NCBI RefSeq assembly: GCF_027532945.1
Contig: NZ_JAPZTZ010000017.1
Location: forward strand, 186,001-250,000
Direction: 5' to 3'
From: Phreatobacter sp.
GTDB taxonomy: Bacteria > Pseudomonadota > Alphaproteobacteria > Rhizobiales > Phreatobacteraceae
DNA: 64,000 bases
The position numbers were made by a program, and so were the translations under genes. This document shows positions 18,196 to 51,126 of this stretch, piece by piece (position 1 is the stretch's first letter; the number at the start of each line of letters is the position of its first letter). The notes beneath the pieces are model-generated. The model worked only from the letters and a program-made list of their open reading frames with translations, had not been told where the DNA came from and made no database searches.

Positions 18196-18271
18196 AACGA
18201 AAAGGGGCGCCTCGCGGCGCCCCTTCCTTAAGCTGAGCCTGGTTGGCTGGATCAGACGTCCATGCCGCCCA
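18196..18271 (-). repeat. Second copy of the groEL tail and terminator
   Basis: These 76 bp match 18322-18397 with one mismatch at a fixed offset of 126 bp. The copied segment holds the groEL terminator, the stop codon and the last codons. On the minus strand it reads ...VGGMDV-stop, against MGGMDF-stop in the true gene. The 50-bp spacer also retains weak similarity to the preceding groEL codons, so the unit looks like a tandem duplication that has drifted outside the terminator. Confidence 0.85.
18204..18223 (-). terminator. Downstream copy of the groEL terminator
   Basis: GGGGCGCC-tcgc-GGCGCCCC, identical to the upstream copy, followed on the minus strand by TTTTCG. It forms a second, tandem Rho-independent terminator for groESL. 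Confidence 0.75.
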
Positions 18272-18321: not shown

Positions 18322-20361
<2,040 letters not shown>

Positions 20362-45347: not shown

Positions 45348-46127
45348 TCAGGGCGCCTGCCGGCCGACGGTCACGTCCGCGGCTGCGGGGCCGGGATGGC
45401 GGACGAGCGGGATGCGCTTCGCCACCAGCAGCAGGGCGTGCCAGTGGATGGCGAGCGTCACCCGCAGGGTGAGCAGCGGATGGGTGACAAGCAGCTTGAC
45501 GAGGTTGCGGTCATTGAGGGGCCGGCGCTCGCCCGATAGCGAGGCGTAGACCATCGGCCCCGCCGAATCCTTGGCTGCGATATGAACGGCGACCTCGTCG
45601 CCCGGCGGCTGCAGGCGGAAGCGGTAGGTCATGTCCCGCGTCAGGAACGGCGAGACGTGAAAGGCCTTGGCGCTGTCCTGGACAATGGGGCGGGTCTCGC
45701 CCTCGGCGGGGATCAGGTAGGAATGGATCTCGCCGAAAGTGTTGTGCACCTCGTAGAGCGTCGCGGCGAGTGAGCCATCGGCGCGATGGCAGAAGAAGAC
45801 GCTCAGCGGATTGAACCCATAGCCGAGAATGCGCGGCATGGTGAGGAGACGGATCGGGCCGCCTGATGTGTCGATGCCCGCCGCGGCGAGGCGTTCCTCC
45901 ACCTGCAGACGCAAGGGCCGTCCCGAGCGGTCGCCATAGTCGGCGGTGCGGAAGGAGAAGACATTGGCGCGATCGCGCGAGAACAGGCGCAGCCGCGCGT
46001 CGAGGCCGTCGATCTCGTCGAGGTCGAGCAGCACCCAGAAGACGCGATAGGCGAGGGCATGGGGCCGTGGCCGGGTGCGACGGTGCATCACCCGGCCGAC
46101 ATAGAGGGCGCTCGCCCCGGTGTTCAC
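45348..46127 (-). CDS. DUF1365 domain protein of the RpoE-ChrR locus
   Basis: 259 residues of the DUF1365 family: SALYVGRVMHRRTRPRPHALAYRVFWVLLDLDEI at the N-terminus and RILGYGFNPLSVFFCHRADG near residue 110. It is cytoplasmic and has no membrane segments. The start overlaps the preceding FAD oxidoreductase by 4 bp (ATGA). The pair recurs beside CFA-type methyltransferases and RpoE-ChrR genes in proteobacteria, where it is linked to modified-lipid formation. The biochemical role is unknown. Confidence 0.88.
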   Translation of the reverse strand: MNTGASALYVGRVMHRRTRPRPHALAYRVFWVLLDLDEIDGLDARLRLFSRDRANVFSFRTADYGDRSGRPLRLQVEERLAAAGIDTSGGPIRLLTMPRILGYGFNPLSVFFCHRADGSLAATLYEVHNTFGEIHSYLIPAEGETRPIVQDSAKAFHVSPFLTRDMTYRFRLQPPGDEVAVHIAAKDSAGPMVYASLSGERRPLNDRNLVKLLVTHPLLTLRVTLAIHWHALLLVAKRIPLVRHPGPAAADVTVGRQAP

Positions 46128-47476
46128 GCCACCTCCGTCAGCGGCGTCGTCTGTGCCGGCAATACGATGCGGCCGGATTCGTCCGCCACCGACCAGGGCC
46201 GACGGACGCCGCCAATGTCCTCGGCGACGGCAAGGCCGGCCTGCAGGCCATCCTCGTGGAAGCCGGCGCCGAAATGTGCACCGCAGAACCAGGTCCGCCG
46301 CACGCCCTGTAGCGACCAGAGCCGCTGCTGGGCGGCGATGGCGGCCTTGTCGAACAGCGGATGCTCGTACATTTCCTCGCGCAGGACGCTGCCCTCACGC
46401 GGCGCCTTCGGCGGGTTGAGCGTGACGAAGAACTGCCGGTCCGGCGGCAGGTGCTGGAGGCGGTTCATCCAGTAGGTGACGGCGCAGGGGCCGTCCTGCG
46501 AGGCGCGCTCACCGATGTGGTTCCAGCTGGACCAGGCGGCGCGTCGACGCGGCATCAGCGCCTCGTCGGTGTGGAGGACGGTGAGGTTGCGGCTGTATCG
46601 GAAGGCACCGAGGAGGTCGTGCTCCTCGGGCGTGGGCTCGGCCAGCATGGCCAGCGCTTCCTTGGCATGGGTGGCGATCACCACCTGGTCGAAGGGGCGG
46701 CTCCAGCCCTGCTCGCCGTCGAGAATGACGCCATCGGCCGTGCGGCGGATGCGCGCAATGGGCATGCCGGAGCAGATCTCGCCGGTGAAGTCCTGCCTGA
46801 GCGCGGCGACATAGGAGCGGCTGCCGCCGACCACCGTCCGCCAGGCGGGACGGCCCGAGAGCTTCAGGAGGCCGTGATTGTCATGGAAACGAATGAAGGC
46901 GCTGGCCGGATAGGACAGGATCTCGGCGCAGGGGGCCGACCAGATGGCGCCGGCCATGGGCAGCAGATGGTCGTCCCGGAAGGCGCGGCCATAGCGCCCG
47001 GCATCGAGATAGTCGCCCAGGGAGATCGAGTGCGAGCGCAGTTCGGCTGCATCGCGCGTGGCGCTGCGATAGAAGCGCAGGAGGTCCTGCAGCATCGACC
47101 AGAAGCGTGGGCTGACGAGGTTGCGGCGCTGGGCGAAGAGCCCGCCGAGGCTGGTGCCGGAATATTCGAGCCGGCCACCATCGAGGGAGACGGCGAAGGA
47201 CATCTCGGTGGCATGGGAGGCGACCCCGAGATGCTCGAGCAGCGCGCAGAAATTCGGGTAGGTCGCCTCGTTGAAGACGATGAAGCCGGTATCGACCGCG
47301 ACCGGCCGGCCGTCGGCGCCGGGAACCTCCACCGTGTTGGCGTGGCCGCCAAGTCGGTCGGCGCGCTCATACAGGGTGACATCGTGGGCCCGGGAGAGGA
47401 GCCAGGCGGCGGAGAGACCGGAAATGCCGCTCCCCACCACGGCGATACGCTGACGTTGTCGGGCCATCGGACGCAT
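46124..47476 (-). CDS. FAD-dependent amine-oxidase-like oxidoreductase of the RpoE-ChrR locus
   Basis: 450-residue flavoprotein with an N-terminal dinucleotide site RIAVVGSGISGLSAAWLLS (about 10-28) and the block YERADRLGGHANTVEVPG typical of amine-oxidase-like proteins found with CFA synthases. Members near this type are implicated in desaturating or oxidising methylated fatty acids, including furan fatty acids, in Rhodobacter. It starts the minus-strand operon FAD protein-DUF1365, divergent from rpoE across 134 bp. No photolyase is present. Activity inferred from context. Confidence 0.88.
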   Translation of the reverse strand: MRPMARQRQRIAVVGSGISGLSAAWLLSRAHDVTLYERADRLGGHANTVEVPGADGRPVAVDTGFIVFNEATYPNFCALLEHLGVASHATEMSFAVSLDGGRLEYSGTSLGGLFAQRRNLVSPRFWSMLQDLLRFYRSATRDAAELRSHSISLGDYLDAGRYGRAFRDDHLLPMAGAIWSAPCAEILSYPASAFIRFHDNHGLLKLSGRPAWRTVVGGSRSYVAALRQDFTGEICSGMPIARIRRTADGVILDGEQGWSRPFDQVVIATHAKEALAMLAEPTPEEHDLLGAFRYSRNLTVLHTDEALMPRRRAAWSSWNHIGERASQDGPCAVTYWMNRLQHLPPDRQFFVTLNPPKAPREGSVLREEMYEHPLFDKAAIAAQQRLWSLQGVRRTWFCGAHFGAGFHEDGLQAGLAVAEDIGGVRRPWSVADESGRIVLPAQTTPLTEVA

Positions 47477-47575
47477 TCAACTGCCTTTTCTCGTGGGAAT
47501 GATAGGGGACTTACGCCCGGGCCGTGGCGACGGTTCAGCCGGGCGAGGATCGATCGGTTCCTTCACCCTGTCCAC

Positions 47576-47605
47576 TGATCCGATGGCGATGGTACCGCGT
47601 AAAGG
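47576..47605 (+). promoter_or_regulatory. Candidate autoregulated RpoE promoter
   Basis: TGATCC (47576-47581), 18 bp, then TAAA (47600-47603). TGATCC is the -35 element described for RpoE-ChrR promoters. The -10 is partial. The chosen sigma ATG (47611) would lie almost at the expected +1, so either the transcript is nearly leaderless or translation starts further in. Confidence 0.5.
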
Positions 47606-47610
47606 GGGAC

Positions 47611-48231
47611 ATGTCGGGTGCTCTTGCGATACACATTGATTTGTCGGCGCCGCGTTTCCGCGGCCCGCACAGACGTGCCGGTGCTGCCTTGGTTGATGCG
47701 AACGCTCTGATTCAGTCGATTGCCCAATCGTCCGATCGGCAAGCCTTCGTCAAACTTTTCGACCATTTCGCGCCGCGCGTGAAAGCGCTGCTCATCCGTC
47801 AGGGGACTCCGCCGGACCTCGCCGAGGAACTGGCGCAGGAAACCCTGCTGATGGTCTGGCGCAAGGCGGCGCTCTTCGATCCCTCGCGGGCTGGTGCATC
47901 GACGTGGATTGCGGCAATCGCCCGCAACCTTCGCATCGACGCCGCCCGCCGGGAGAAGCGGTCGCGGCTGCCAGAAGTCTTCGACATCATCCAGGGCGAG
48001 GAGCCCGAACAGCCGGACCAGGTCCTTTCGGGAAGCGAGCGCGACTCTCGTGTCCGGGCGGCCCTCACCAATCTGTCCCCCGATCAGCTCAGAGTCGTTC
48101 AGTTGGCTTTCATGGAAGGTCTCAGTCATCAGGACGTGGCGAAACGCCTGTCCATCCCGCTTGGAACCGTCAAATCGCGGCTGCGGCTCGCCATGGCCCG
48201 CCTGCGTGGCGTGCTGGAGGATCTGCGATGA
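47611..48231 (+). CDS. rpoE: ECF sigma factor RpoE of the RpoE-ChrR (singlet-oxygen) type
   Basis: 206 residues. Sigma-2 region about 45-115 (DRQAFVKLFDHFAPRVKALLIRQ, then LAEELAQETLLMVWRKAALFDP), sigma-4 region about 145-200 (LSPDQLRVVQLAFMEGLSHQDVAKRLSIPLGTVKSRLRLAM). The sequence is collinear with Rhodobacter RpoE, with about 20 extra N-terminal residues. GGGGGA precedes the ATG. Its stop overlaps chrR by 4 bp. In relatives, singlet oxygen or organic peroxides free RpoE from ChrR to activate lipid and photoprotection genes. Confidence 0.92.
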   Translation: MSGALAIHIDLSAPRFRGPHRRAGAALVDANALIQSIAQSSDRQAFVKLFDHFAPRVKALLIRQGTPPDLAEELAQETLLMVWRKAALFDPSRAGASTWIAAIARNLRIDAARREKRSRLPEVFDIIQGEEPEQPDQVLSGSERDSRVRAALTNLSPDQLRVVQLAFMEGLSHQDVAKRLSIPLGTVKSRLRLAMARLRGVLEDLR

Positions 48232-48860
48232 TCGCTTCTCATCGTCCGTCCGAGGAAACGCTGGCCGCTTTCGCCGCCGGCACGCTCGATGAGGGCCTTG
48301 CCCTCGTTGTCGCCGCCCATCTCGAGGTCAGCCCGGAGAGCCGGCGCGACCTCACCGAGATCGAGGCCGTGAACGGTGCCCTCCTCGACATGATCGAGCC
48401 CGAGGCCATGGAGGCCGACGGGGAGACGCTGCTGCGTGGCCTGCCCGCGCGGATCACCGAGCGCCTTGCCCCGCCTGTCGCCCCGCATGATGCGGCTGGC
48501 CTCAAGGTGCTGGCGCCTTACGAACTGGGCCGCTGGCAGACCGTCGGCCGTGGCGTGGCGCTGCGCCGGGTGACCGTGCCCGGTTCCGATGCGCGGGTCT
48601 TCATGCTGCGCGCCCAGCCCGGCACGCGCCTGCCCGCCCATCGCCACACCGGCGCGGAGTGGACGACCATCGTCGCGGGTGCCTACCAGCACGAATATGG
48701 CCGCTACGCCGCCGGCGACTTCGACGAGGCCGACGAGCGCCATGCCCACACGCCTGTGGTCGATGCGATCGAGGGCTGCACCTGCATCGTCGCGCTCACC
48801 GGCAATGTCCGTTTCGAGGGCTTTTTCGGCCGCCTGCTCCAGCCCCTCGTGCGGCTGTGA
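48228..48860 (+). CDS. chrR: Anti-sigma factor ChrR, with N-terminal zinc cysteines replaced by serine
   Basis: 210 residues with the two ChrR domains. The N-terminal anti-sigma domain aligns with Rhodobacter ChrR through SEETLAAFAAGTLDEGLALVVAAHLEV. The zinc ligands there are two His and Cys35/Cys38; here a histidine at 5 and His31 remain but positions 35 and 38 are Ser (EVSPESR; AGC codons at 48330 and 48339). The C-terminal cupin keeps its metal site (PAHRHTGAEWTTI: His138, His140, Glu144, and a later His in HAHTP). If it still holds RpoE, it does so without the tetrahedral zinc. Overlaps rpoE upstream and DUF1295 downstream. Confidence 0.9.
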   Translation: MIASHRPSEETLAAFAAGTLDEGLALVVAAHLEVSPESRRDLTEIEAVNGALLDMIEPEAMEADGETLLRGLPARITERLAPPVAPHDAAGLKVLAPYELGRWQTVGRGVALRRVTVPGSDARVFMLRAQPGTRLPAHRHTGAEWTTIVAGAYQHEYGRYAAGDFDEADERHAHTPVVDAIEGCTCIVALTGNVRFEGFFGRLLQPLVRL

Positions 48861-49666
48861 CCCTCTGGGGCCTGGCGGCGGCGATCGCCGTCATTGCCGC
48901 CGCCATGAGCCTTATCATGGCGGGGGCCTGGGCGATCGAGAGGCGCACCGGCAATTCCGGCTGGGTCGATGTTACCTGGACCTTCGGCGTCGGGGTTACT
49001 GGCGCGCTCGCCGTGGCCCTGCCGCTCGGTGCTGGCCCTGTCGAAAGGCGGCTTCTGGTAGCGGCCATGGCCATCGCCTGGGCGCTGCGCCTCGGCCTGC
49101 ACATTGCCGGCCGCACCCGTGGCATCACGGATGATGCCCGCTATGCCAAGCTCCGGCAGGACTGGGGTGACCAGGCCTCCTACCAGATGTTCCGCTTCCT
49201 GCAGATCCAGGCCGGCGCAAGCGTGCCGCTGGTCCTCGGCATCGTGCTGGCAGCCAACCGGCCGGGCGCGCTCGGCTGGCAGGATCTGCTCGGCCTCGCC
49301 GTCTTTGCCGCCGGCTGGATCGGCGGCGGCCTCGCCGACCGGCAGCTTGCCGCCTTCATTCGCGACGCCGCCAAGAAGGGGCCGATCTGCGATGTTGGCC
49401 TGTGGGCCTGGTCGCGGCACCCCAACTACTTCTTCGAATGCGTGCTCTGGGCGTCCTTTGCCATCATGGCCCTGTCTATCTCCGGCTATCCGCTCGGCTG
49501 GCTCGCACTCGGCGCCCCCGCGTTCATGACACTGCTTCTGACGCGTGTCTCCGGCATCCCGCCGCTGGAGGAGCACATGCTGCGCAAGCATGGTGCGGCG
49601 TTTGCAGCCTATCAGGCGCGCACCAGCGCCTTCATCCCCCTGCCGCCGCGTTCTGCGAAAGGTTGA
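48857..49666 (+). CDS. DUF1295 membrane protein (steroid 5-alpha-reductase-like)
   Basis: 269 residues, six or seven helices. The C-terminal signature DVGLWAWSRHPNYFFECVLWASFAIMAL and FMTLLLTRVSGIPPLEE is that of DUF1295, distantly related to steroid 5-alpha reductases and isoprenylcysteine methyltransferases; it likely acts on membrane lipids. GTG start overlapping the chrR stop (GTGA) places it in the rpoE operon. Homologues are common in RpoE-ChrR and furan-fatty-acid loci. Confidence 0.9.
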   Translation: MTLWGLAAAIAVIAAAMSLIMAGAWAIERRTGNSGWVDVTWTFGVGVTGALAVALPLGAGPVERRLLVAAMAIAWALRLGLHIAGRTRGITDDARYAKLRQDWGDQASYQMFRFLQIQAGASVPLVLGIVLAANRPGALGWQDLLGLAVFAAGWIGGGLADRQLAAFIRDAAKKGPICDVGLWAWSRHPNYFFECVLWASFAIMALSISGYPLGWLALGAPAFMTLLLTRVSGIPPLEEHMLRKHGAAFAAYQARTSAFIPLPPRSAKG

Positions 49667-49670
49667 TTGC

Positions 49671-50702
49671 ATGTCTCTGGTTGCCGGCCTCATCGCCTGG
49701 GGTGAACGCACGCCTGTCCCCGATGTGCTGACCCGCGCGATGATCGGCTGGCTGGTGGGGCGGACCGACCGCAGCCTCGCCGCCCAGGGCGCTGCCGACG
49801 ATGCCGCCTTCGCCGCCGCCATGGACGCTTTTCCCGTCGCGATCCACACCGATGCCGCCAATGCCCAGCACTATGAGGTGCCCGCGGCCTTCTTCCTGAA
49901 GACGCTCGGACCGAAGCGGAAATATTCCTCCTGCTACTACGATGGCCCCGCCACCACGCTGGCCGAGGCAGAGGTGAAGGCGCTCGACCTCACCATGGAC
50001 CATGCGGGCCTTGCCGACGGACAGCGCATCCTCGAGCTCGGCTGCGGCTGGGGCTCGCTGTCGCTGACCATGGCGGCGCGTTTCCCCGGCGCCACGATCA
50101 CCGCCGTGTCGAATTCGCGTTCGCAGCGGGCCTTCATCGAAGGCGAGGCGGCCCGGCTGGGCCTGACCAACCTGACAATCGTCACCTCCGACATGAACGA
50201 CTTCGCGGCCGACGGGCAGTTCGACCGGATCGTCTCGGTCGAGATGTTCGAGCACATGGCGAACTGGCGGGCGCTGCTCACGCGGGTGCGCTCCTGGCTG
50301 AAGCCAGATGGCCGGCTGTTCATCCATGTCTTCACGCACCGCACGGGCTCCTACCGCTTCGACGCTGCGGACAAGACCGACTGGATCGCCCAGCATTTCT
50401 TCACCGGCGGCCTCATGCCGGGCCATGGCCTCATCCGCCAGTTCCCCGACCTGTTCACCGTCGAGGACGAGTGGCGCTGGAGCGGCGAGCACTATCGCCG
50501 GACGGCCGAGGACTGGCTGGCGCTTTTCGACGCGCGCCTTGCGGAGATCGACCCGATCCTCACGCAGGTCTATGGCGAGGAGAATCTCGCTCTGTGGCGG
50601 CGGCGCTGGCGGCTGTTCTTTCTGGCGACCAGCGGGCTGTTCGGCCATGCGGGAGGCGACAGCTGGGGCGTCAGCCACTATCGGCTGAAGCCGACGCCCT
50701 GA
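49671..50702 (+). CDS. CFA-synthase-type SAM-dependent methyltransferase
   Basis: 343 residues of the cyclopropane-fatty-acid synthase family. An N-terminal segment (about 1-100) contains AQHYEVPAAFFLKTLGPKRKYSSCYYDG, where the ligand and the phospholipid acyl chain are bound, then the SAM motif ILELGCGWGSLSL near residue 118, and EMFEHMANWRALL. It would methylate an unsaturated membrane fatty acid. It starts 4 bp after DUF1295 and is the fourth gene of the rpoE operon. Being under RpoE control, with an FAD enzyme next door, points to a modified fatty acid (furan-type or branched) used against oxidative stress; the product is inferred. Confidence 0.92.
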   Translation: MSLVAGLIAWGERTPVPDVLTRAMIGWLVGRTDRSLAAQGAADDAAFAAAMDAFPVAIHTDAANAQHYEVPAAFFLKTLGPKRKYSSCYYDGPATTLAEAEVKALDLTMDHAGLADGQRILELGCGWGSLSLTMAARFPGATITAVSNSRSQRAFIEGEAARLGLTNLTIVTSDMNDFAADGQFDRIVSVEMFEHMANWRALLTRVRSWLKPDGRLFIHVFTHRTGSYRFDAADKTDWIAQHFFTGGLMPGHGLIRQFPDLFTVEDEWRWSGEHYRRTAEDWLALFDARLAEIDPILTQVYGEENLALWRRRWRLFFLATSGLFGHAGGDSWGVSHYRLKPTP

Positions 50703-50712
50703 AGGCAGCGCC

Positions 50713-51126
50713 TCAGATCCAGCCCCAGCCGGCGATCAGCACCAGCCAGCCATAGGCACCGGCTGCGACCAGCGCCGTCGCCACCGTGCCGTAGAGCACG
50801 TCGATCACGGTCAGCGTCGCTGTCCAGCACCGCAGCGTCGCATAGTTCGTCAGGTCGTAGGTGGCATAGGCGAGAAGGCCGAGGAAGCCACCATTGACCA
50901 GCGCCATGACGACACCGCCGCCCGCCAGAGCCGGCAGGACGGCGAAATGCACGACCCCGAGGGGAAAGAGGAAATAGAAGGCGAGGGCCGGCAGCCAGCG
51001 CAGATTGTCGAGCAGCAGGTCGCCGAGGGTCGGGCGATAGAGGATGCGGGCCATGTTCGACAGCCAGATCGCATCGAGCACGCCGAAGATGACCAGCGCC
51101 GCCACATAGCCCCACAGGAAGGTCAT
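50713..51126 (-). CDS. DUF2177 membrane protein
   Basis: 137 residues with four helices, matching DUF2177 (FLWGYVAALVIFGVLDAIWLSNM, ATYDLTNYATLRCWTATLTVIDVLYG). It is convergent with the CFA-type gene (10-bp gap). DUF2177 genes recur in RpoE-ChrR and lipid-modification clusters, so it probably belongs to the same response. A weak TGAACC-N19-TATGAG lies upstream. Function unknown. Confidence 0.88.
   Translation of the reverse strand: MTFLWGYVAALVIFGVLDAIWLSNMARILYRPTLGDLLLDNLRWLPALAFYFLFPLGVVHFAVLPALAGGGVVMALVNGGFLGLLAYATYDLTNYATLRCWTATLTVIDVLYGTVATALVAAGAYGWLVLIAGWGWI

Follow-up and report, generated by a model that had tools for sequence, protein, structure and literature searches.

A ChrR-family anti-sigma factor of Phreatobacter that has lost three of its four zinc ligands and probably still restrains its sigma factor

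The window analysed here, a stretch of 64,000 nucleotides from Phreatobacter sp. (contig NZ_JAPZTZ010000017.1, positions 186,001 to 250,000), encodes a ChrR-family anti-sigma factor paired with an RpoE-type extracytoplasmic function (ECF) sigma factor. Alignment with Rhodobacter ChrR reveals that the anti-sigma domain of the window protein has kept just one zinc ligand out of four. We propose that, even so, this ChrR probably folds and holds RpoE inactive in a zinc-free state. Its function would then be that of a working metal-free anti-sigma domain, probably stabilised by packing and by the capping of a helix, with the cupin domain as the sensor.

The ligands of Rhodobacter sphaeroides ChrR are His6, His31, Cys35 and Cys38 in the anti-sigma domain and His141, His143, Glu147 and His177 in the cupin domain (PMC6852236). 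The window protein aligns to this ChrR (2z2s_B) without gaps over its residues 3-65 in a phmmer search, so the register of the ligand positions is correct, and it has Arg6, His31, Ser35 and Ser38 there. The placement of the segment EVSPESR (residues 33-39), with SxxS standing for CxxC, was therefore borne out; both serines are encoded by AGC, at 48330-48332 and 48339-48341. The original prediction had also counted two histidine ligands as kept, which did not hold. Of the two adjacent N-terminal histidines in Rhodobacter ChrR, the second alone binds zinc (PMC6432622). The retained His5 is thus not a ligand, position 6 is Arg, and three ligands are lost rather than two, with His31 alone staying. 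The loss is confirmed, and is stronger than had been claimed. The motif H-X24-H-X3-C-X2-C of HHCC-type zinc-binding anti-sigma domains (PMC6432622, PMC4960319) is accordingly absent (R6, H31, S35, S38). The remaining structural claims proved right: the gene is intact (210 aa), it overlaps both rpoE and the DUF1295 gene, and the cupin site is complete (H138, H140, E144, H174). The protein scores 156.8 bits against TIGR02451, the ECF11 anti-sigma ChrR family (cut-off 124.5), and 185.8 against the narrower NF051881 equivalog, below its cut-off of 300. It has the features of the ChrR family, i.e., an anti-sigma domain, a cupin domain (Cupin_7, PF12973) with HHEH metal ligands, and a paired RpoE-type ECF sigma gene. 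The closest solved structures are Rhodobacter ChrR itself (2z2s_B, E 2.4e-26, phmmer) and, for the sigma factor, R. sphaeroides SigE (2q1z_A, E 2.3e-39).

Close relatives share the change. The ChrR of another genome of the genus (L129), 96% identical to that of the window, has the same two AGC codons at positions 35 and 38, and other relatives have Asn/Ser (L001) or Asn/Thr (L130, L131). A search of 5.8 billion proteins gave 630 relatives, and among the best 120 of these, on which the following residue counts are based, none has a cysteine at 35 or 38. The same codons in a second genome and the absence of both cysteines from the 120 nearest proteins rule out an error of sequencing or assembly at the two codons, which had been named as a possible pitfall and to which we give a negligible probability. 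All 120 have His31 and either Ser, Thr, Asn or Asp at position 35, and 105 have Arg6; source names among the matches listed include Bosea, Chelatococcus and Methylopila. The universal His31 could be taken to mean that a metal is still bound, through His5, His31 and acidic side chains. We regard this as very unlikely: residues 1-62 of the window protein contain no cysteine, and His5 varies within the clade (it is Arg, Met or Lys in L131, P0009, P0011 and P0032), which leaves no obvious common substitute site. Nor is there, among the 120, any common alternative set of Cys or His ligands nearby, a takeover that the original prediction had suggested looking for. A cysteine adjoining His31 (Cys30) occurs in 68 of 121 sequences (the 120 and the window), many of them Bosea-type members. 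The idea that SxxS is a motif in its own right was dropped: among relatives, position 35 varies between S, N and D, and position 38 is S or T apart from one A and one I. Judged by sequence, the shared trait of the clade is the joint loss of His6, Cys35 and Cys38. The proposal of a zinc-free ChrR subclass stands in its sequence part (both cysteines absent 120 times out of 120, no shared alternative ligands, one supported clade), and the window ChrR likely belongs to such a subclass.

The distribution of the trait was surveyed in 208 ChrR-family loci, which are not a random draw: L001-L027 were found by short peptide patterns of the window protein (itself L028), and TIGR02451 hits make up the others, L029-L098 from 190 genomes of the class and L099-L208 from 199 genomes of the order. 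Five above-cut-off places of the order search (two in G266, one each in G354, G357 and G329), the split G112 of the class search, and most below-cut-off TIGR02451 places were left out. Some loci are apparent duplicates (L001 and L132 seem to be one and the same contig; L005/L114 and L008/L124 look like repeats). L184, with its N-terminus in another frame, was excluded from the sigma-linkage counts, the zinc-less promoter count and the tree, but still counts among the 208 loci and the 154 partner sigmas. Of the 208 loci, 134 have the complete His-His-Cys-Cys site (24/27 pattern-found, 50/70 class, 60/110 order), and all 208 have the cupin metal site. We built a quick tree of 194 rows (218 before an 85% identity cut) with the ligand columns removed; its support comes from the Shimodaira-Hasegawa-like approximate likelihood ratio test (SH-aLRT) only, and 79 of its 191 inner branches are open. 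The window clade forms one group of 14 rows (SH-aLRT 99), all without both cysteines, beside zinc-bearing Hyphomicrobiales proteins; its members include Phreatobacter, Bosea, Chelatococcus and kin. The zinc trait switches at least 19 times on this tree, 5 of the switches being forced by starred branches. The tree alone cannot separate gain from loss, and we read the change in the window clade as a loss because the zinc site is found at both extremes of the family and in Rhodobacter.

Within the genus, 10 of 12 genomes have a match, six of them window-type. G390 has an intact His-His-His-Cys-Cys and G253 a His-His-His-Ser-Ala (residues 5, 6, 31, 35, 38), and the copies of G388 and G371 lack the cysteines and a sigma neighbour. 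The proteins of G253 (L233) and G390 (L234) are Rhodobacter-like ChrRs, 53% identical to each other; L234 has an intact HHCC site, whereas L233 has both cysteines replaced and both histidines kept, which possibly represents a recent, half-way loss. The genus thereby offers matched material, as different species carry a zinc-free ChrR of the window type, an SxxA form or an intact HHCC form. A zinc-bearing second ChrR serving as a back-up in the window's genome (G000, 97% complete) was considered and dropped, as the genome has a single TIGR02451 match.

The genetic context and the substitution patterns argue for continued function. The pattern TGATCY-N15..17-CGTA is found upstream of 92 of 125 zinc-bearing loci, 16 of 19 zinc-less sigma-linked loci (it is missing in L108, L087 and L094) and 8 of 8 loci of the window clade, and in 0.1-0.3% of shuffled upstream stretches. 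The window's genome contains 18 copies against one of a reversed control, and many may be there by chance; one lies ahead of an rpoHII-type gene (NCBIfam PRK07500, 457 bits, cut-off 315), as in two sister genomes (L252, L258), and rpoHII is a direct RpoE target in Rhodobacter (PMC6852236). In four genomes of the genus (L223, L240, L256, L259) an RpoE-type motif also lies in front of a gene identified by eye as TspO-like; judging from this motif, the gene may be another RpoE target. Sites with one mismatch number 6 in the window against 3.9 expected, which is not above chance; the one facing the divergent operon, TGAACC-N16-CGTA, is supported by its position and by its recurrence in six Phreatobacter loci of five genomes, though not, with the pattern used, in L002 and L003. 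In the anti-sigma domain the rate of nonsynonymous substitution (dN) is below the synonymous rate (dS) in all 10 pairs of five clade genes, with ratios of about 0.11 to 0.68, compared with about 0.05-0.40 in 12 zinc-bearing pairs; dN is lowest in the cupin domain of the clade genes. The anti-sigma domain of the clade is thus constrained against amino-acid change. The suggestion that the sigma factor is no longer silenced in the usual way becomes less likely, because the clade retains rpoE and the promoter-like site, and its anti-sigma domain is still under selection.

How might the domain work without its metal? The AlphaFold2 fold of the window ChrR matches the ChrR structure, and a helix begins at position 35 in the models. 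A helix-capping residue occupies this position in 9 of 11 zinc-less, sigma-linked lineages (binomial P 4.6e-6, for lineages picked by eye and treated as independent). The knuckle between helices II and III, zinc-clamped in Rhodobacter ChrR, would be held by hydrophobic packing and by a cap in which residue 35 (Ser, Asn or Asp) is joined by residue 38 (Ser or Thr) and His31; by analogy, these protein contacts may resemble those of zinc-free anti-sigma domains such as RseA. Stress would be sensed by the cupin domain, leading to the loss of ChrR and freeing RpoE, which would then drive rpoE-chrR and rpoHII and probably the lipid genes nearby. A salt bridge between Arg6 and Asp35 was considered and dropped: Arg6 recurs in L055, L068 and L090, yet the window has Ser35. 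A wider reading is more tentative, and we give it somewhat less than an even chance. It holds that a metal-free helix cap and Arg6 took the place of the zinc knuckle throughout the lineage, alongside a matching aromatic-to-alanine change in RpoE, and that the lineage still runs the singlet-oxygen regulon; that the zinc of the anti-sigma domain would be neither sensor nor needed, the cupin metal being so; and that the same exchange would have arisen several times in Alphaproteobacteria.

Several observations weigh against a working zinc-free domain, and some would equally suit a dead or nearly dead one, in which case ChrR would have let go of RpoE and the cupin half would be retained for some other purpose. 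Single alanine changes at the ligands are reported to abolish zinc binding in Rhodobacter, where zinc is reported as needed for inhibition (Newman 2001, cited in PMC6852236). Zinc loss usually accompanies a missing sigma neighbour: among the 179 loci of the class and order draws, the full site is present in 102 of 126 with an adjacent sigma gene and in 8 of 53 without, 45 of the latter 53 lacking both cysteines, which fits a relaxed function. A locus counts as lacking a sigma neighbour when no sigma gene on its strand ends in the 400 bases before it and none is detected at E 1e-8 in the rest of the sequence retrieved; the contigs of L010 and L187 extend only a short way upstream. Two of the 10 clade pairs, both with L130, have dN/dS of 0.48 and 0.68, above the zinc-bearing range. 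Residues 1-10 of the model, including position 6, have a mean predicted local distance difference test score (pLDDT) of 82, against 94 in a zinc-bearing control, and AlphaFold2, run here without metal or partner, often folds proteins regardless of lost ligands. We still regard a dead domain as rather improbable: rpoE and chrR still overlap, the promoter-like site persists, residues 1-62 remain under selection, and the window clade conserves His31, Gly18, Gly50 and the leucines of the core. Unlike that clade, most zinc-less copies have no sigma gene beside them; the copies without one make up a second, larger set (L072, L082, L084, L086, L089, L091, L095, L133 and most of L157-L208), 34 rows of which form one starred group in the tree. 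L133 adjoins, by eye, genes resembling cyclopropane-fatty-acid synthase and cysteine synthase.

The zinc loss might instead have weakened or tuned the anti-sigma factor, cutting its affinity, with compensation in RpoE and a higher basal stress response. Position 81 of RpoE (Rhodobacter numbering) could hold such a compensation. It is Phe in 114, Tyr in 32 and Ala in 8 of the 154 partner sigmas, and Ala is confined to the loci of the window clade (8/8, apparently seven distinct genomes). However, the other zinc-less lineages keep an aromatic residue, so Ala81 is not required for zinc loss, and the contact of position 81 with ChrR is hypothetical. We deem a tuned factor unlikely, and a domain working without zinc remains our preferred explanation. 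Zinc sparing in low-zinc water was considered as a driver of the loss and dropped, as an idea only.

Zinc-free anti-sigma domains are already known, and the zinc-less ChrR clade adds a new case. RseA of Escherichia coli and RskA of Mycobacterium are class I anti-sigma domains without zinc (PMC7406223, PMC6852236), and the window ChrR likewise lacks the motif in a predicted ChrR-like fold. By analogy the likeness is one of working mode alone, the sequence kinship being to ChrR: RseA spans the membrane and is cut by proteases (PMC6852236), whereas the window ChrR carries a cupin sensor domain. In a survey of class I anti-sigma factors, zinc and non-zinc members are intermixed across the tree and mixed groups are named (PMC7406223); in AS19-1 and AS27 the motif comes and goes within the group, as in ChrR here, and ChrR/ECF11 is not among the mixed groups named in the accessible part of that survey. 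The complex of Bacillus subtilis RsiW with its sigma factor has the same shape with and without zinc (PMC5358783), but RsiW retains the motif, most of whose ligands the window ChrR has lost. In the literature searched, with most subscription papers outside it, no paper describes a ChrR/ECF11 subclass without the zinc site. What exactly the zinc does in the singlet-oxygen response is not known, according to a review (PMC6852236), and a chemical model of the ChrR zinc site reacts fast with singlet oxygen, which supports a sensing role (PMC6432622). A natural clade without the site, with operon, promoter-like site and cupin ligands kept, makes this role testable. Should RpoE of Phreatobacter or Bosea still react to singlet oxygen by way of ChrR, the anti-sigma zinc could not be the essential sensor there.

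The coordinates of the features are collected in the table below.

Table. Features of the chrR locus in the window (positions of the window)
Feature	Position	Strand	Remarks
chrR, 210-aa ChrR-family anti-sigma factor	48228..48860	+	ATG at 48228, TGA end at 48860
chrR domains: anti-sigma ~residues 1-62, cupin ~residues 99-210	within 48228..48860	+	
Arg6 (CGT) replacing zinc ligand His6	48243..48245	+	alignment
His31 (CAT), sole retained anti-sigma zinc ligand	48318..48320	+	alignment
Ser35-Pro-Glu-Ser38 replacing Cys35-x-x-Cys38	48330..48341	+	residue 35 caps helix III in model
Cupin ligands His138, His140, Glu144, His174, all retained	48639..48749	+	alignment
rpoE, ECF sigma factor	47611..48231	+	stop overlaps chrR start; Sigma70_r2 + Sigma70_r4_2
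RpoE Ala101 (Rhodobacter position 81)	47911..47913	+	alignment of 154 partner sigmas
Promoter-like site TGATCC-N16-CGTA	47576..47601	+	in front of rpoE
Promoter-like site TGAACC-N16-CGTA, one mismatch	47512..47537	-	faces divergent amine oxidase/DUF1365 operon
Flavin amine oxidoreductase	46124..47476	-	PF01593; divergent from rpoE
DUF1365 gene	45348..46127	-	PF07103; in operon divergent from rpoE
DUF1295 gene	48857..49666	+	PF06966; overlaps chrR stop
Cyclopropane-fatty-acid-synthase-like methyltransferase	49671..50702	+	PF02353; after DUF1295 gene
DUF2177 membrane protein	50713..51126	-	PF09945

Elsewhere in the window, a stretch of 26 bases occurs twice in identical form on the reverse strand, at 18229-18254 and 18355-18380, the two copies lying 126 bases apart.
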